Shown in pieces: positions 10,674 to 19,665 of a stretch of 34,363 nucleotides of DNA (position 1 is the first letter of the stretch; each line of letters begins with the position of its first letter). The stretch is taken from IMG/VR virus record IMGVR_UViG_3300035703_000268, positions 1 to 34,363 of that record; one strand, 5' to 3'. A model generated the notes under the pieces. That model was not told where the DNA came from. It saw only the letters and a list, made by a program, of their open reading frames with translations, and did not search any database. The DNA comes from a virus. Position numbers and translations under genes: made by a program.

Positions 10674-10716
10674 TATTGCATATTTTTGAAATGCGTGCAA
10701 TAGAAAAAATTGCAAT
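10674..10716. promoter_or_regulatory. Divergent control region with TTGCA half-sites (candidate operator)
   Basis: The 95-bp gap between divergent genes holds TATTGCA (10674-10680), TGCAATA (10696-10702) and the palindrome ATTGCAAT (10709-10716). The first two are an inverted pair centred on an A/T-rich stretch. Weak -35/-10-like pairs overlap them on both strands (for example TTGCAT, 17 nt, AATAGA on plus). This is the expected place for the early promoters and for binding of the small XRE protein encoded at 10737. Confidence 0.5.
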
Positions 10717-10736: not shown

Positions 10737-10910
10737 ATGTTATCTATCGAAGAGATTCGCGCCCGCCTTACCGGGGCTGATATTCCCGAGATCGTCAAGG
10801 CCACCGGCCTCTCCTACAATACCGTGAAAGCGATTCGGGATGGCGCTCCCGGCGCTCGATACGAGACGATCAAGCTGCTCACGGAGTTTTTTGGCGAGAA
10901 GCAGCAGTGA
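10737..10910 (+). CDS. Small XRE/Cro-like DNA-binding protein
   Basis: Fifty-seven residues from ATG 10737, with CAGGAGA 6-7 bases upstream. An in-frame start at 10710 falls inside the operator-like repeats and is rejected. Most of the protein is one HTH: IPEIVKATGLSYNTVKAIRDG (about 18-38), with a short helical end (YETIKLLTEFFGEKQQ). The size and position at the divergent control region fit a Cro-like switch protein that binds the TTGCA sites. A GTGA overlap couples it to the next gene. Confidence 0.78.
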   Translation: MLSIEEIRARLTGADIPEIVKATGLSYNTVKAIRDGAPGARYETIKLLTEFFGEKQQ

Positions 10911-11461: not shown

Positions 11462-13792
11462 ATGACCATCATCGCGAGCATCAAGCAGTACACTGACCTC
11501 GGCTGGTATCTTGTCCCGATCCCGGCAGGGCAGAAGGGGCCGACATCCTACGGCTGGAACCAAAAAGACAAGGCACTCACCGGCCAGGGTGCTATCGACT
11601 TCTATTCTAAGAATCCGACTTGGAATGTCGGTCTCATCCATCAATGGACCGGCACCTGCGCGATCGACATCGATCACATGGAATGGACGCGGATCATCTT
11701 CGAGGGGCTGGGACTAGACCTAGACGCCTTGATGGCATCAACCGCTAGAATCCGTGGGCGGGAAGGCCGAGGCAAACTGATCTTCCGCGCCCATCGGGAT
11801 GACCTCTCCCGGCATTCCATCGCATGGCCGAACAAGGATGGCCGAGGCAACACAACCGTCTTCGAGTTGCGCGGTGGGCCGGTGCAAGATGTCCTGCCGC
11901 CGTCGATCCACCCCGACACGATGCAGCCATATGTCTGGGAGGGGTTGCCCTTCGATCAGATTCCGATCTTGCCGAAGCAGCTGCAGGTCATGTGGGACGA
12001 ATGGGATCGCTTCCGCCCGCAAATGATGGACCTATGCCCGTGGAAGGTCAGGCCTGAGTATCAGGCCCCGGTTCGGGTTCGATCACCCAATCCCGGCACA
12101 TCGGTGATCGATGCCTATAATGCGGCGCACAATATCGGAGAGTTGCTGGTCAAGTATGGCTATCGCCGCACCGCACCGAATCGGTATCTAAGCCCGAACA
12201 GCGGCACCAAGCTGGCCGGTTGCAATGTGTTCGACAATAACACGGCATTCAGCCATCACGGTTCCGATCCGTTCGGCAACGAACACGCCTTCGATTGCTT
12301 CGAGCTTTACCTACAGTTCGAGCACGCCGGTAATATGAGTGCGGCGATCAAGAACGCAGCCGCCTTCCTGAACATCACCACCGATCCGAGCCATGAGTGG
12401 ACGCCCGAGGCGAAGGTTCAGATTGATCACGGCAAGGCGGCAACCCCCGGCGTACTGCCTTCCAAGCGCATCACCAGCGTCACGCCCGACAACCCGCTGG
12501 CATCTATCCCGGCGCACTTGCTTTCGATCCCTGGCGTGCTTCAAGACGTTGTGCGGTACTACGAAACAACCGCCATCAAGACGCAGCCGCAGTTTGCCGT
12601 GCAAGCCGCCATTGCCCTTGGTGCCGTTGCAATGGGGCGGCGATGGACAACGAGCCAGCGCAACTTCAGCAACCTGTACCTGCTCAATATTGGCGAGACT
12701 GGTTGCGGCAAGGAACACGCCAAGACGGTCATCGAGGCCATGCTTGATGCAGCCCAGCTAGGGCATCTGCTAGGGCCAGCCGGTTACACCAGCGCCAGCG
12801 GCGTCTTCTCGGCGCTCATCTCCCGGCCTATTCACGTTTCCGTGATCGATGAGTTGGGGCGAACACTCAAGAGTGCCGCCAACCGTTCGATGCAGCACAA
12901 GGCCGATAGCCTCACGGCCATCATGGAATGCTTTGGGCGGCAGGATGGCGTCTTGCGGCCACAAGGATACGCCACCATCGGCTTAACCAAGGAACAGGCA
13001 GAGTCCTTCGAGAAGGTGATCAGAAGGCCGTCCTTGACGCTCCTAGGCATGTCTACGCCCAGCGAGTTCTACGGGGCGATTTCAGGCGGCGACATTGCGT
13101 CTGGCCTCTTGAACCGCTTCCTGATCGTCAAGTCTGAGATCGGCGTGCAAATGAGCCAGGAGCGGCGGATCGTGCCAATTGGCGACCGCATCATCGGATG
13201 GCTCCAAGAACAGGCACAGGCGCACTCTGGAGCGGGGAACCTGACCGGCACCAATACCTATGACATGCCGCCCGATCCCGTCGAGGTGCCCTTTACAAGG
13301 CCAGCAATGGACATCCTGCGGGACTACGAGGCCGAACTGGTCGCGGCGATCAAGAGCGAGAACGAAACCGGCCTCGAGGCGATGTACAACCGCAGCCGTG
13401 AGATTGCCATGCGGATCAGCTTGATTGTCGCTAGGTCATTGCTCGAGACCGAGATCGGACCTGAGCCTATGCAATGGGCGATTGATTATGTCAGGTTCTA
13501 CAACCGGCGGGCCATCGCCATGTTTAGGGACAACATGGCCGAGAGCAGCCATCAGGCGATCTGCAAGGCCGTCATTGCCAAGCTTAGGGCATCCGGCCTC
13601 AAGGGGCTGACGGAATCCGAACTGGGCAACCGCATCTCCGCGTTCGATGCTTTGACGCTTCGAGACCGGGGCCAGGTGATGGACAAGTTGGTTGCCGACT
13701 ACGGCATCCAATGCCGCCATACGAACAAGGGCCAGCGGGGCCGACCCAGAATGGCATGGTTCATCCCGGCACCGGAGGCTACAGAAGATTGA
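11462..13792 (+). CDS. Primase-helicase: Prim-Pol (AEP) domain plus DUF3987-type ATPase
   Basis: 776 residues, with GGGAGG ten bases before ATG 11462. N-terminal archaeo-eukaryotic primase-like domain (about 5-180): AIDIDHM gives the metal-binding DxD (D69, D71), ELRGG at 135-139, and PPSIHPD the SxH motif (S148, H150). Central ATPase (about 345-620): Walker A GETGCGKE (411-418) and Walker B HVSVIDELG (D463, E464), typical of the DUF3987/YfjI group. The C-terminal part ends in a winged-helix-like region (LRASGLKGLTESELGNR). It probably lays primers and drives unwinding at the phage origin. No stand-alone DNA polymerase was seen, so elongation may use host Pol III or the AEP domain. Confidence 0.92.
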   Translation: MTIIASIKQYTDLGWYLVPIPAGQKGPTSYGWNQKDKALTGQGAIDFYSKNPTWNVGLIHQWTGTCAIDIDHMEWTRIIFEGLGLDLDALMASTARIRGREGRGKLIFRAHRDDLSRHSIAWPNKDGRGNTTVFELRGGPVQDVLPPSIHPDTMQPYVWEGLPFDQIPILPKQLQVMWDEWDRFRPQMMDLCPWKVRPEYQAPVRVRSPNPGTSVIDAYNAAHNIGELLVKYGYRRTAPNRYLSPNSGTKLAGCNVFDNNTAFSHHGSDPFGNEHAFDCFELYLQFEHAGNMSAAIKNAAAFLNITTDPSHEWTPEAKVQIDHGKAATPGVLPSKRITSVTPDNPLASIPAHLLSIPGVLQDVVRYYETTAIKTQPQFAVQAAIALGAVAMGRRWTTSQRNFSNLYLLNIGETGCGKEHAKTVIEAMLDAAQLGHLLGPAGYTSASGVFSALISRPIHVSVIDELGRTLKSAANRSMQHKADSLTAIMECFGRQDGVLRPQGYATIGLTKEQAESFEKVIRRPSLTLLGMSTPSEFYGAISGGDIASGLLNRFLIVKSEIGVQMSQERRIVPIGDRIIGWLQEQAQAHSGAGNLTGTNTYDMPPDPVEVPFTRPAMDILRDYEAELVAAIKSENETGLEAMYNRSREIAMRISLIVARSLLETEIGPEPMQWAIDYVRFYNRRAIAMFRDNMAESSHQAICKAVIAKLRASGLKGLTESELGNRISAFDALTLRDRGQVMDKLVADYGIQCRHTNKGQRGRPRMAWFIPAPEATED

Positions 13793-13816
13793 CCTAGGGA
13801 CATATCATTTTGATAG

Positions 13817-13846
13817 GGCCTCGGAGCGATCCGGGGCCTTTTCTTT
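13817..13846 (+). terminator. Rho-independent terminator after the primase-helicase gene
   Basis: Nine-bp stem GGCCTCGGA (13817-13825) / TCCGGGGCC (13830-13838) with one G-U pair and a GCGA tetraloop, followed by TTTTCTTT. It sits 25 bp after the primase-helicase stop. Confidence 0.85.
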
Positions 13847-14337
13847 GATGATGGCACATACGATTGTGCGATGCCTCGCCATGCCATAGAAACGGGCCTT
13901 GTGGGCGTTTCTTGTGGGTGTCCGCTAGGGTAGTGGCTCAGGCACCATGAAGGCCGCTGGCGGGCCCCCCAGATTAAACAGGCTTATTCAGGGGATGCGT
14001 CTCACCCGTAAGTCGGACCGCTAAGTGCTTGATGTCGCTAGTCTACTGTAAGAGAGAGAAGATATATAATATTATTATCATTTACTATGTGTGTACTCTC
14101 ACGTACGTGTTGCATAGGAGGTGGGGGTGTTTCCACTTCCATCTTTCTTCCGGCCAGCGATCTTATGCTGGAAAACCCATAAATATGTTTTTGCACCGTA
14201 AAGCATTGAAAAGAAAAGGTTTCTTTTTTAGGGTTATTTTACAAGCCCCCAAGCGCAAGCCACTTCTAATCAAAGCCGGTTGCATTTTTGATGCTCAGGG
14301 GGTATGCAACATTGATTGACAGCAACAGGAGGCAACT
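13847..14337. other. Largest gap: no convincing gene; inverted repeats, AT-rich block
   Basis: About 490 bp between a terminator and the HNH gene. The first half is GC-rich, with AGAAACG/CGTTTCT (13888-13912) followed by TTG, GCACA/TGTGC (13854-13869) and a run GGGCCCCCC near 13962-13970. From about 14041 it turns strongly AT-rich, with TATAAT at 14065-14070 but no good -35. GTTGCAT (14279-14285) and ATGCAAC (14304-14310) form a perfect inverted pair just before the HNH ribosome binding site. A 96-codon frame at 14032 has no ribosome binding site and looks like chance. The stretch could hold a promoter, a packaging (cos) site, an origin or a small RNA; none is shown. Confidence 0.5.
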
Positions 14338-14844: not shown

Positions 14845-14854
14845 AAAATGCACT

Positions 14855-14902
14855 TTTCTGCAACATGAGGCTTGCAAGTTTCTGCAAGATGTGGGATGAA
14901 GG
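14855..14902 (+). repeat. 24-nt tandem direct repeat upstream of a small gene
   Basis: TTTCTGCAACATG (14855-14867) and TTTCTGCAAGATG (14879-14891) recur 24 nt apart, with TTGCAAG between them. The block lies in the 82-bp gap between the HNH gene and the 14927 gene and shares the TGCAA core with the sites at 10674-10716. Possible binding site for a phage regulator. Confidence 0.42.
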
Positions 14903-15351: not shown

Positions 15352-15533
15352 CCATCGAATGGGCTATGCAAGAACTCAAGATCAGACGACAGGAAGAACG
15401 CGAGGCCGAAGAAATTGGAACATGGGAAGCATTCGCCGCAATGAAACGCCGCAGATCCTACAGACGCAAAGACATGGGATACAGCCGCACCAAAGCCAAA
15501 GCATGGCTCGAACTGGCAGAGGTACACCAATGA
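15348..15533 (+). CDS. Small charged helical protein
   Basis: Sixty-one residues, starting in an ATGA overlap with the gene before and ending in an ATGA overlap with the gene after, which supports real translation. Highly charged: QELKIRRQEEREAEEIG, then AAMKRRRSYRRKDMGYS and a Trp/Leu helix (AKAWLELAEVHQ). No family or motif recognised. It is probably made together with its neighbours in the HNH-to-regulator operon. Confidence 0.58.
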   Translation: MTIEWAMQELKIRRQEEREAEEIGTWEAFAAMKRRRSYRRKDMGYSRTKAKAWLELAEVHQ

Positions 15534-15775
15534 CCGCCACATGGACCCCTGTCATCAAAGGCGAGCGGAAGCCCGAAGGATGTGTCCTCGTCACCTGTAC
15601 CTACGAGACCAGCAAATTCGAGCTTGCCATGTTCGGCGGTCCCGTCGAAACTTTCCATCGCATCCGCATAGGCCGATGGAACAAGACGAGCCAGAGATGG
15701 CACGATGACGGGCCCCGAGGCGAGAAACTCAATAACGTCACCGCATGGATGCCACTTCCGGAGCCTCACCAATGA
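15530..15775 (+). CDS. DUF551-like protein
   Basis: Eighty-one residues from ATG 15530, with ATGA overlaps on both sides. The longer frame back to 15170 runs antiparallel to nothing but overlaps two coding frames and is rejected. Pattern: WTPVIKGERKPEGCVLVTCTY at the start, central HRIRIGRW…SQRWHDD, and the end NNVTAWMPLPEPHQ. The closing WMPLPEP and opening W-P-kP-G-VLV are hallmarks of DUF551, a small phage protein family of unknown function. Placed directly before the XRE-sigma4 regulator gene. Confidence 0.72.
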   Translation: MTATWTPVIKGERKPEGCVLVTCTYETSKFELAMFGGPVETFHRIRIGRWNKTSQRWHDDGPRGEKLNNVTAWMPLPEPHQ

Positions 15776-16338
15776 CCGACTTCGCCGTCAAAGTCACCGT
15801 TCGCAATGCCAGACTCCTTCGCGCCATCAAGGCCGCAGGGTTCGCCACACAAGCCGAGTTCGCCAAGTTCATCGGCACCACGCCACAACGCATTGGCGAA
15901 CTCCTCAACTTCAAGTTAAAGCCCATAGCCAACGGCGACTGGTCATCCCTTGCAATGGACATCTCCTCCGCACTCCGCACCGAGCCGGAACACCTCTGGC
16001 CGCACCACATGCGTGACCTGCTGACCGCCCGCAACTCCATCGAGGCAGAGATTGACGCCGAGCAACTAGCCCAGATCGCTGCACCGTCGAGCCTGGAAGT
16101 GGACAAACCACTCCTCTCCAAGCTGGTCGCGGCCATCACCCACCCAAAGCGCCGCGCCATGATCGAGGCCCGCTTCGGCCTCACCGGCGAACCGGAACAG
16201 ACGCTCGAAGAGATCGCCAAAGACTATGGCGTCACCCGCGAACGCATCCGGCAGAACGAATGGAAGGCCATTCGCGAGATGAGGGAAAAGGCTAGACGCA
16301 TGGGCATTGAAGTGCCAAAGCATCCATATCGATACTGA
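15772..16338 (+). CDS. Regulator combining XRE-like HTH and sigma-70 region 4
   Basis: 188 residues from ATG 15772 (ATGA overlap). Residues about 10-75 form an XRE-like HTH (RAIKAAGFATQAEFAKFIG, TTPQRIGELLNF, then EPEHLWPHH). Residues about 112-175 are sigma-70 region 4: a helix ITHPKRRAMIEARFGLTGE, then TLEEIAKDYGVTRERIRQ (144-161) with the near-invariant RERIRQ of the -35 recognition helix. Regions 2 and 3 are absent, so it cannot act as a full sigma factor. It more likely binds a phage -35 element or operator and touches host RNA polymerase. It is the last gene before the terminator and the packaging/head genes. Confidence 0.85.
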   Translation: MTDFAVKVTVRNARLLRAIKAAGFATQAEFAKFIGTTPQRIGELLNFKLKPIANGDWSSLAMDISSALRTEPEHLWPHHMRDLLTARNSIEAEIDAEQLAQIAAPSSLEVDKPLLSKLVAAITHPKRRAMIEARFGLTGEPEQTLEEIAKDYGVTRERIRQNEWKAIREMREKARRMGIEVPKHPYRY

Positions 16339-16375
16339 TCCCCCTGCGGTTTACTCCTCCCGCCGCAGCAAACTG

Positions 16376-16403
16376 GCCCCGCCCTTGTGGTGGGGCTTTT
16401 TTT
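16376..16403 (+). terminator. Rho-independent terminator after the XRE-sigma4 gene
   Basis: Stem GCCCCGCC (16376-16383) / GGTGGGGC (16389-16396) with one G-U pair and a CTTGT loop, followed by seven T (16397-16403). Its right arm and loop contain the -35 element of the next promoter. Confidence 0.87.
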
Positions 16404-16413
16404 GCTCTATATT
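16385..16413 (+). promoter_or_regulatory. Promoter TTGTGG-17-TATATT, probably leaderless
   Basis: TTGTGG (16385-16390), 17-nt spacer, TATATT (16408-16413). The ATG of the XRE gene follows after 7 nt (16421), at the expected transcription start, and no Shine-Dalgarno is present. The same layout is found at 20426-20454 and, with an 18-nt spacer, at 28426-28455. Confidence 0.6.
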
Positions 16414-16420
16414 GCGCCGC

Positions 16421-16600
16421 ATGACACCAGACGAACTCATCCAATGGCGCACCTCGGTCGCCCTATCAAAGCGCAAGGCCGCAGAGGCCCTTGGCCTCGC
16501 ACGCAACACATTTCGCGCCTACGAAACCGGAAAGCAGCCGATTCCGCGATACATCGAACTTGCCGTTAAGGCAGTTCCACCTAGCCTCAAAACAGGCTAA
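16421..16600 (+). CDS. XRE-family HTH protein before the terminase genes
   Basis: Fifty-nine residues from ATG 16421. The in-frame extension upstream crosses the terminator and is rejected. Almost entirely an XRE HTH: ELIQWRTSVALSKRKAAEALG, then LARNTFRAYETGKQPIPRYIELAV (5-50). No ribosome binding site. The start lies at the +1 of the promoter in front, suggesting a leaderless transcript. It is separated by 2 bp from the small terminase gene. It could autoregulate that promoter and so control entry into the packaging genes. Confidence 0.8.
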   Translation: MTPDELIQWRTSVALSKRKAAEALGLARNTFRAYETGKQPIPRYIELAVKAVPPSLKTG

Positions 16601-16602
16601 AA

Positions 16603-16989
16603 ATGCCCACGCCGCCCCCTCCGGTTCATTCTCGGTTCAAGAAAGGTCAGTCTGGTAATCCAGGCGGGATAACATCTGAGCAGCGCAAGGCTGAAATCCG
16701 CAACGCCGAACTGGCCACCAAGATCAGAACGCGGCTTCTTGAAGCCGTTCAAGCAACGCTCCAAGATGACACATCAACCGCTGCCGCTCTTGAACGCATA
16801 GAGGGCAACATTCTAAAGCTGATCAAGGAAAGCGAAGATCGCGGCCTAGGTATGCCAAAGGCTTCCGTTGATCTTACGAGCGAAGACGGCACCATGACGC
16901 CGCGTCCGTCCCTCGATGTATCTGTCCTATCGACTGAGACGCTGGCCGAAATCATGCGGGCTGCGGATGCACAATCTAAACGGCGCTGA
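16603..16989 (+). CDS. DUF5681 protein, probable small terminase subunit
   Basis: 128 residues. The N-terminus RFKKGQSGNPGG (11-22) is the DUF5681 signature, found directly upstream of large terminase genes in many phages of this type. The rest is helical (ELATKIRTRLLEAVQATLQ, RIEGNILKLIKESEDRG) and ends in a segment (LSTETLAEIMRAADAQ) that may contact the large subunit. By position and family it should recognise the packaging site and recruit the motor. Its 3' end overlaps the large terminase start by 23 bp. Confidence 0.82.
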   Translation: MPTPPPPVHSRFKKGQSGNPGGITSEQRKAEIRNAELATKIRTRLLEAVQATLQDDTSTAAALERIEGNILKLIKESEDRGLGMPKASVDLTSEDGTMTPRPSLDVSVLSTETLAEIMRAADAQSKRR

Positions 16990-18394
16990 CCTTGCGGCGG
17001 TTGAGAAGGAACTATGCCGCAGGTCACTTATCTACTTCGCACAACGTGCATGGCACATTCTTGAGCCATCAACGCCTCTCAAATGGGGATGGGCGCTTGA
17101 TGCTATATGCGAACATCTTGAAGCCGTGACGCATGGCAATATCAGGCGGTTGCTCATGAACGTCCCGCCAGGGTCGATGAAGTCACTTCTCACCGGCGTG
17201 ATCTGGCCCGCATGGGAATGGGGGCCGCGCGACATGCAGGAACTGCGATACATCGGCACCGCGCATAAGCAAGAACTCGCTATTCGTGACAACCTCAAGT
17301 GCCGCCGCCTCATCCAGTCGCAGTGGTATCAATCACTTTGGCCTCTTGAGTTAACTGGTGATCAAAACGCCAAGACCAAGTTTGAGAACACACGTACTGG
17401 TTTTCGAGAAGCAATGGCATTCGAGAGCATGACCGGCTCACGCGGAGACCGTGTGATTATAGACGATCCGCATTCGGTCGATGATGCCAATAGCCCCGCC
17501 AAGTTAAAGGGCGGTATCACCACATTCCGCGAAGCCCTTCCATCGCGCGTCAACAATGAACAATCCGCAATCGTCATCATCATGCAGCGGTTGAACGAAG
17601 GCGATGTTTCCGCCGTGGCTCTCGACCTCGGATATGATCATCTATGTATCCCGATGCGATACGAGCCAGATCGTGCTAAAACCACAAGCATCGGATGGGC
17701 CGATCCGCGCAAGGTCGAAGGCGAATTAATGTTCCCTGACCGATTCCCTGAGGAACAAGTTCAAGAACTTGAACACTCGCTAGGCACCTATGCCGTGGCC
17801 GGTCAACTTCAACAACGCCCCGCCCCGCTTGGCGGCGGCATCTTCAAGGATGAATGGTGGCGCTTCTATGAGGCCATGCCACCGCTCAAGTGGCGCGCGA
17901 TCTATGCTGACACTGCGCAAAAGACAAAGGAGCAGAATGACTATTCCGTCTTCCAATGCTGGGGCCAAACGCAAACCGGACAGATCGTGCTGCTCGATAT
18001 GGCACGCGGCAAGTGGGAGGCTCCAGAACTGGAAACGATGGCTCGGGCATTTTGGAATAAACATAAGGCAGCATCGGACAAATGGCCGCTTCGAGCCTTC
18101 AAGGTCGAAGACAAGGTAAGCGGCACCGGCCTGATCCAGAAGCTGAAACGCGAAGGAATTCCGATCATTCCGATTCAGCGAAACACCGACAAAGTGACAC
18201 GCGCATTCGATGCCGCGCCCTACGTTCAATCGGGCAATGTCTATATCATGTCCAATATTGATCACCTGGCCGATTTCATGTCCGAGGCGTCCGTCTTTCC
18301 TAACGGCACGCATGATGATATGATAGACGCCGCAATGAGTGCAATTTCCGATATGACCGCGCCGCAGTCTGCTCCTGCGGTTCGCGCCTTGTGA
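16967..18394 (+). CDS. terL: Large terminase subunit (ATPase and nuclease)
   Basis: 475 residues from ATG 16967; the frame is open further upstream but only inside the small terminase gene. ATPase: Walker A-like VPPGSMKS (66-73), a common terminase variant of GKS, and Walker B DRVIIDDPHS (161-170). Nuclease: IYADTAQK (D315), FKVEDKVSG (E381, D382) and THDDMIDA (D450, D451, D454), the RNase H-like metal site. The C-terminal part matches the psiM2 ORF9-type terminase group. The protein drives DNA into the prohead and cuts it at genome ends. The portal gene follows after 8 bp. Confidence 0.95.
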   Translation: MHNLNGADLAAVEKELCRRSLIYFAQRAWHILEPSTPLKWGWALDAICEHLEAVTHGNIRRLLMNVPPGSMKSLLTGVIWPAWEWGPRDMQELRYIGTAHKQELAIRDNLKCRRLIQSQWYQSLWPLELTGDQNAKTKFENTRTGFREAMAFESMTGSRGDRVIIDDPHSVDDANSPAKLKGGITTFREALPSRVNNEQSAIVIIMQRLNEGDVSAVALDLGYDHLCIPMRYEPDRAKTTSIGWADPRKVEGELMFPDRFPEEQVQELEHSLGTYAVAGQLQQRPAPLGGGIFKDEWWRFYEAMPPLKWRAIYADTAQKTKEQNDYSVFQCWGQTQTGQIVLLDMARGKWEAPELETMARAFWNKHKAASDKWPLRAFKVEDKVSGTGLIQKLKREGIPIIPIQRNTDKVTRAFDAAPYVQSGNVYIMSNIDHLADFMSEASVFPNGTHDDMIDAAMSAISDMTAPQSAPAVRAL

Positions 18395-18402
18395 GGTTCT
18401 AA

Positions 18403-19665
18403 ATGGGACTTTTTGACCGTTTCCGCCGCCCGCAAGAGCGCAAGGAATCCGCTGCCGCCAAGCTCATGGTGATCAATCCCGGCCAGGCCGTGTGGTCGCC
18501 ACGCAACTACGAGAGCTTCGCAAAAGAAGCCTATGGCAAGAACGTGGTGGCATATCAGGCCATCAACCGGATCGCTGATGCCATCGCATCTGTCCATCTT
18601 GGCGTCTACCGTGGTGATACGGAACTGGTCGATCATCCGCTCATCACGCTGCTCGAACGACCGAATCCGCTTCAGTCCTATTCCGATTACGTTCGCGCCA
18701 AGGTATCGTTCCTGATGATCGCGGGCAACGGCTACGAAGAGCGGTTCATGGTGGGCCGCGAGGTCAAGGAACTCTATCAGCTTCGCCCCGACCGCATGAA
18801 GATCGTTCCGTCATCCAACGGCATCCCGTCTGCATACGAGTACACGCTCGGCCAGAACAAGGTGCGATGGGAGATGGACCCTCGCACGCTCGAATGCGAT
18901 GTGCGGCACTTGAAGCTGTTCAACCCGCTGAACGACTGGTACGGGATGAGCCCAATCGAGGCGGGTTCCTACGCCATCGACCAGAACAACGAAGCCATGA
19001 ACTGGATGCAAGCCTTGCTTCAGAACTCGGCGCGCCCCTCTGGTGCATTGACCGTCAAGGATTCCGGTACGCTATCAGACGAGAATTTCAACCGCCTAAA
19101 AGCCCAGATCGAGGAACAATACTCTGGCTCCTCGAACGCCGGTCGCCCGATGCTCCTCGAAGGTGGACTTGACTGGCAGCAGATGGGCCTAAGCCCGACT
19201 GACATGGGCATCATCGAGGTCAAGTTCTCCTCGGCCCGTGACGTTGCCCTAGCATTCGGCGTGCCGCCGCAGTTGCTCGGCATACCTGGCGATAACACCT
19301 ATTCCAACTATGCCGAGGCCCGTCTGGCCTTCTGGGAAGACACGGCGCTTCCATTGCTCCAGATGATCGTCAACGATTGGAACAATTGGCTCGGTTCCAT
19401 CTACGGTGTCGAGATCAAGCCAGACATCGACAGCATTCCGGCGATTGCCGAGAAGCGGCTTTCGATGTGGCAGATGGCTGATCAGTCACAAGACCTTACC
19501 ATCAACGAACGCCGCGCCTTGAAGGGATATGGGCCAATCGATGGCGGTGATGTGCTATTCGTTTCTTCCGCCGAAATCCCCTTGAGCATGGCAACCGAAC
19601 CGGCACCGGAACCTCTCAGCCCCGATCTTGTGAAAGCACTGGCCTATGGCTCGAAGGCTGGTTGA
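18403..19665 (+). CDS. Portal protein, HK97 family
   Basis: 420 residues. Typical opening MGLFDRFRRP, then VVAYQAINRIADAIASVHLGVYRG (about 48-71), LLERPNPLQSYSDY, LIAGNGYEERF, and the conserved LRPDRMKIVPS. Later FNPLNDWYGMSPIEAG, and in the C-terminal half DVALAFGVPPQLLGIPGDNTYSNYAEARLAFW, quoted in parts here. All are HK97-type portal landmarks. Length is normal for the family. It forms the dodecameric ring at one capsid vertex. Overlaps the MuF-like gene by 20 bp. Confidence 0.95.
   Translation: MGLFDRFRRPQERKESAAAKLMVINPGQAVWSPRNYESFAKEAYGKNVVAYQAINRIADAIASVHLGVYRGDTELVDHPLITLLERPNPLQSYSDYVRAKVSFLMIAGNGYEERFMVGREVKELYQLRPDRMKIVPSSNGIPSAYEYTLGQNKVRWEMDPRTLECDVRHLKLFNPLNDWYGMSPIEAGSYAIDQNNEAMNWMQALLQNSARPSGALTVKDSGTLSDENFNRLKAQIEEQYSGSSNAGRPMLLEGGLDWQQMGLSPTDMGIIEVKFSSARDVALAFGVPPQLLGIPGDNTYSNYAEARLAFWEDTALPLLQMIVNDWNNWLGSIYGVEIKPDIDSIPAIAEKRLSMWQMADQSQDLTINERRALKGYGPIDGGDVLFVSSAEIPLSMATEPAPEPLSPDLVKALAYGSKAG

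Follow-up and report, generated by a model that had tools for sequence, protein, structure and literature searches.

Bacteriophages bend the host RNA polymerase to their own ends through separate proteins that touch region 4 of the sigma factor, lambda CI and AsiA/MotA being examples. In PDB 1rio, sigma region 4 and the N-domain of lambda CI are two distinct proteins sitting on one DNA, whereas the protein described here, XRE-sigma4, is a single chain. Its residues 112-176 align with region 4 of RpoD/SigA (PF04545) along 4.1-4.2, with the TRERIRQ motif kept; unlike those sigma factors, it lacks regions 1-3 and is fused to a repressor-type domain. Since regions 1-3 are missing, it would be unable to melt promoters. 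With the Cro/CI-type N-domains (434, P22 c2, lambda CI) it shares a predicted helical XRE fold, but the partner of this fold is region 4 and not an oligomerisation or protease domain.

Two further systems invite comparison. The late-gene regulator Q of phage 21 possesses a sigma-R4-like fold in helices H3-H6 (PMC6606751), whereas XRE-sigma4 has a true region 4 sequence, another N-domain and no terminator after the promoter. The Ltr/RinA/ArpU late regulators occupy a place before the packaging genes similar to that of XRE-sigma4 in the clade of our phage (PMC13123087), yet XRE-sigma4 has no Pfam or PHROG match to them, and the late promoter of relatives apparently does not depend on it. A protein of an uncultured marine virus (A0A0F7L6V6, 200 aa), compared by Foldseek match and annotation, matches XRE-sigma4 over its whole length (E 1.9e-6) and carries 'Sigma-70 region 3 domain protein' as its sole annotation. 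No description of an XRE and region 4 fusion was found in the literature searched.

Gene and domain architecture

The gene lies in IMG/VR virus record IMGVR_UViG_3300035703_000268, the 34,363 bp of which constitute the window, that is, the whole stretch of DNA analysed (Table 1). Its reading frame is open, with an ATG that overlaps the stop codon of the preceding gene, and the proteins of all 31 close relatives begin with the same MTDFAVKV; a dN/dS of 0.14-0.24 indicates purifying selection. XRE-sigma4 is the final gene of a variable small-gene operon between terminators at 13815-13840 and 16375-16403, in agreement with a preliminary description of this DNA that had placed it last before a terminator. 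That account had also put it directly before the terminase and head genes: it does precede the packaging genes, but two genes, the 59-aa HTH gene and a DUF5681 gene (16603-16989), intervene before the large terminase. The preceding DUF551-like gene is found together with XRE-sigma4 at many close loci as well as in L061/L062 and is missing before it in L011, L039, L042, L043 and L046; it is a frequent, non-constant partner. An obligate pairing of the two was rejected because XRE-sigma4 stands alone at several loci.

Table 1. Features of the window discussed in the text
Feature	Coordinates	Strand	Remarks
57-aa Cro-like regulator	10737..10910	+	phrog_18104 transcriptional regulator; candidate reader of TTGCA operators
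TTGCA/TGCAA half-sites	10676..10715	+	Divergent early promoter region
Two inverted repeats (A/T)TGCA-N6-TGCAA, 24 bp apart	14848..14887	+	Candidate operators, small-gene operon promoter
DUF551-like gene	15530..15775	+	Overlaps XRE-sigma4 start; Pfam DUF551 E 0.001, below cut-off
XRE-sigma4 gene	15772..16338	+	188 aa; 31 close relatives share the reading frame with its start and stop; Sigma70_r4 E 3e-10
Cro/CI-type (XRE) DNA-binding domain, residues 13-90	15808..16041	+	AlphaFold pLDDT 81; Foldseek to 434/P22/lambda repressors
Block with helices 2-3, residues 24-53	15841..15930	+	Alleles A and B differ here as a unit
Sigma-70 region 4 (4.1 and 4.2), residues 112-176	16105..16299	+	TRERIRQ-E-KA kept as in RpoD
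Intrinsic terminator	16375..16403	+	After XRE-sigma4
Late promoter core TTGTGG-N17-TATATT	16385..16413	+	Overlaps terminator 16375-16403
59-aa HTH gene	16421..16600	+	First gene of late operon; apparently leaderless

The AlphaFold model of residues 1-95 (pLDDT 81) finds the 434, P22 and lambda repressors among its best 50 Foldseek matches and no sigma domain at all; against the 434 repressor (2or1) it reaches a TM-score of 0.77 by target length at 1.7 A. Two 1rio entries among these 50 are lambda CI chains from the complex with sigma region 4. Sequence similarity to Cro/CI-type repressors is weak, while the predicted fold is that of an XRE domain: HTH_3 scores weakly in 19 of 22 family members and falls below the Pfam cut-off for the XRE-sigma4 of the window. 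Sigma70_r3 scores in just two of the 22 (best E 0.08), and for sigma region 2 Pfam gives no match in XRE-sigma4. The N-domain as a degenerate sigma region 3 was rejected on the grounds of this sparse Sigma70_r3 signal and of the best 50 folds, which are free of sigma domains. The absence of a sigma region from the model of the N-terminal half, together with the prevalence of HTH_3 over Sigma70_r3, therefore points to a repressor-type domain joined to region 4, and bears out the earlier assignment of an XRE-like fold with no sigma regions 2-3. In the full-length model a low-confidence segment (89-110) links two domains; XRE-sigma4 comprises a Cro/CI-type domain, a flexible linker of ~20 residues and a complete region 4.

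The C-terminus is the canonical region 4 HTH that had been recognized there. Pfam Sigma70_r4 matches residues 125-172 (E 3.1e-10, above the curated cut-off) and scores in 22 of 22 aligned family members, the closest solved structures are those of SigA/RpoD region 4, and the -35-reading helix TRERIRQ-E-KA is identical to that of RpoD and kept in the window's clade. Reading of the -35 element is not constant in the family, because contacts are partly lost in diverged members (R to P in L064, E to A in L095). Having region 4 with its -35 contacts and lacking region 2, XRE-sigma4 is not a sigma factor.

Distribution of the family

Close full-length copies, with 85-97% identity, are found on 31 IMG/VR contigs, and more distant ones include two at ~50% (L061, L062) and seven at 38% (L063-L069). 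Full-length relatives are present in 4 of the 301 genomes searched from the family of a Comamonadaceae MAG; otherwise RpoD in these genomes matches only about residues 114-182. No phage record in an INPHARED-derived collection reaches 80% coverage of XRE-sigma4. Plasmid matches titled 'sigma factor-like HTH protein' were set aside, being annotated at ~520 aa, far above 188 aa. The fusion is real, conserved and recurrent in other phages.

Its surroundings change with phylogenetic distance. XRE-sigma4 sits between the portal and the scaffold/major head genes in L065, is flanked by a Cas4-type exonuclease and primase in L095 and L139, and has RuvC or integrase genes nearby in L061/L062. The gene thus occurs in the replication or head modules of distant phages, and its place before the terminase is therefore peculiar to the window's clade. 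It is also associated with other primase types (66-67% primase in L048, L174 and L198), and the variety of primases and of unrelated modules fits a movable accessory gene.

Proposed role and apparent allelic exchange

What could be the function of such a protein? We favour, with a probability of about one half, an accessory phage transcription regulator that joins a DNA-reading domain of Cro/CI type to sigma-70 region 4. The XRE N-domain would bind an operator, while the region 4 domain would occupy either a -35 element close by or the polymerase's beta flap, thereby aiding or obstructing the host RNA polymerase at a small number of selected promoters. That XRE-sigma4 couples operator binding to polymerase contact, as already suggested in the preliminary description, is plausible. 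Counted against an accessory regulator are the want of an allele-separating site, the partial loss of -35 contacts in L064 and L095, and the partial state of some of the contigs that lack the gene.

Two main alleles, A and B, are distinguished by residues 24-53 (PQRIGELLNFKLKP versus PQHINAIINFREKP). Within this block pN is 0.29 and pS 0.51, compared with a pN of 0.002-0.043 and a pS of 0.17-0.24 in the rest of the protein (pN 0.04 in region 4). From the sequences, it looks like the operator-reading unit has been exchanged and the output domain kept: same output, new address. A bolder and more tentative version of the regulator hypothesis would make region 4 a modular, DNA-addressed element, a second -35/beta-flap module brought to promoters that are picked by an exchangeable repressor domain, with phages re-targeting RNA polymerase by swapping the 30-residue HTH block. 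A CI-like domain and region 4 naturally fused in one chain, with a block-variable DNA-reading part, would re-address the polymerase simply, and XRE-sigma4 would be a ready scaffold for studying region 4 apart from sigma.

The same allelic pattern bears on two less likely explanations. XRE-sigma4 might serve as a decoy in host takeover, its region 4 displacing the host sigma-70 from the beta flap and the XRE domain merely tethering or dimerising it. This would accord with a complete region 4 close to that of RpoD, with the location among the variable genes of the small-gene operon and with the known phage proteins that remodel region 4 (AsiA/MotA, PMC6755090), but it leaves unexplained why A and B differ in the DNA-reading helices while the rest stays constant, and we regard it as unlikely. 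Somewhat less probable still is a repressor acting on DNA only, in which the two HTHs read a composite of operator and -35 site and exclude RNA polymerase, serving immunity or competition in the manner of Cro. The closeness of the N-domain to phage repressors, the retention of TRERIRQ and the differences in the HTH block, which are expected for immunity types, would all suit such a repressor, yet a k-mer and inverted-repeat search of the phage genomes found no site cleanly separating allele A from B, and hence no allele-specific operator in these phages.

Relation to the late promoter

The gene had been proposed to act as a late-gene switch through three TTGTG sites. These sites (13864-13916) are not conserved in relatives, and TTGTG occurs 62 times in the window against 71 expected by chance; as operators they were rejected, and the proposed route of action is not supported. 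The late promoter itself has a good -10 and a poor -35 (TTGTGG), and its spacer is exactly 17 in all 30 of the 32 loci in which the core is found, the other two having the cassette cut off or replaced. The -10 TATATT stands 7 bp before the ATG of the 59-aa HTH gene, with no Shine-Dalgarno sequence in 16408-16421, and the start of the late operon appears leaderless. A different gene begins at the position of this ATG in L025, L055 and L059.

Primase relatives were gathered independently of XRE-sigma4 and then scanned from primase to terminase. XRE-sigma4 is present on 13 of the contigs that have both ends, and it is absent between primase and terminase from L188 (primase 96%), L190 (terminase 91.5%), L193 and L196, as well as from eleven more distant contigs. 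A search of whole records with the family profile and PF04545, for which G003 served as the positive control, returned no XRE-sigma4 copy elsewhere in these four, of which L188, L193 and L196 are partial contigs and L190 belongs to a 44-kb record (G313) with one sub-threshold PF04545 match (E 0.025). L188, L190 and L193 retain the late promoter core, with a diverged spacer of equal length in L190 and L193. The late promoter therefore seems not to need XRE-sigma4, and a requirement for the protein in late transcription does not appear from these sequences. Because the late promoter is unchanged in close relatives that lack the gene, XRE-sigma4 is better viewed as accessory than as the master late-gene switch; near-identical backbones that dispense with it, and its placement elsewhere in distant phages, speak against the role first ascribed to it. 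A suggestive gene position, as this comparison of relatives illustrates, is no proof of a late switch.

An inverted repeat at 16344-16368 (loop TTTACTCCTCCCG), just before the terminator, begins 41 bp upstream of the late -35. It is alike under the A and B alleles and missing from L011, which has XRE-sigma4; in L190, L193 and L196 the stem letters differ and pairing is retained. The repeat is more likely an RNA hairpin, because the diverged stems still pair in other lineages, and was rejected as an XRE-sigma4 operator on account of its identity in A and B, its loss in L011 and the pairing retained by its diverged stems. A dedicated late-gene activator, binding near 16340-16385 and recruiting RNA polymerase to the weak -35, is accordingly about as improbable as the repressor acting on DNA only: the place of XRE-sigma4 at the end of the early genes, next to the late operon, the imbalance of the promoter elements, the conserved repeat upstream and a position resembling that of Ltr/RinA regulators (PMC13123087) would all be in its favour, but the promoter core is the same in L188, L190 and L193, where the gene is missing, the repeat behaves as described, and distant phages keep the gene in other modules. 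A Q-like antiterminator is highly improbable: although the region-4-like fold at the early/late junction, where Q genes sit, recalls the resemblance of helices H3-H6 of phage 21 Q to sigma region 4 (PMC6606751), the + strand has no terminator from 16421 to 18500, after the late promoter start, the N-domain is XRE, and relatives lack XRE-sigma4.

The hairpin is possibly a 3'-UTR small RNA. Its sub-threshold Rfam matches are two-hairpin sRNAs (anti-hemB, E 0.017; suhB/mmgR, 0.13; ar14, 2.2), and an anti-Shine-Dalgarno-like TCCTCCC noted with it occurs once on the + strand and is absent from the - strand. In L011 (817-3071) and L170 (10531-12785), genes for a 459-aa and a 299-aa protein (by eye helicase-like and methyltransferase-like, respectively) are inserted and separate the late cassette from XRE-sigma4 or from the site that it would occupy.

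Probable TTGCA operators and a Cro-like protein

The inverted repeats at 14848-14887, better supported as operators than the TTGTG sites, are the only such pair in the window, where 0.33 single sites are expected by chance, and they are kept in relatives whose flanks differ. They overlap a promoter-like TTGCAA-N17-GATGAA, from which the small-gene operon with XRE-sigma4 would be transcribed. Repeats of the form TTGCA-N6-TGCAA occur in phages whether or not they carry XRE-sigma4, and under both alleles; their conservation without the gene and under either allele led us to reject them as XRE-sigma4 sites. Their probable reader, at both 10676-10715 and 14848-14887, is the 57-aa Cro-like protein, the recognition helix of which is nearly invariant in the close clade and in relatives whether they carry XRE-sigma4 or lack it. 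Its homologues occur in L188, L190 and L196, all devoid of XRE-sigma4, and we infer that it is a simpler candidate for a temporal switch than XRE-sigma4. In L196, two TTGCATAATGTTGCAA repeats lie directly behind the late terminator (12918-12957); they are of the TTGCA operator type, here at the late cassette.
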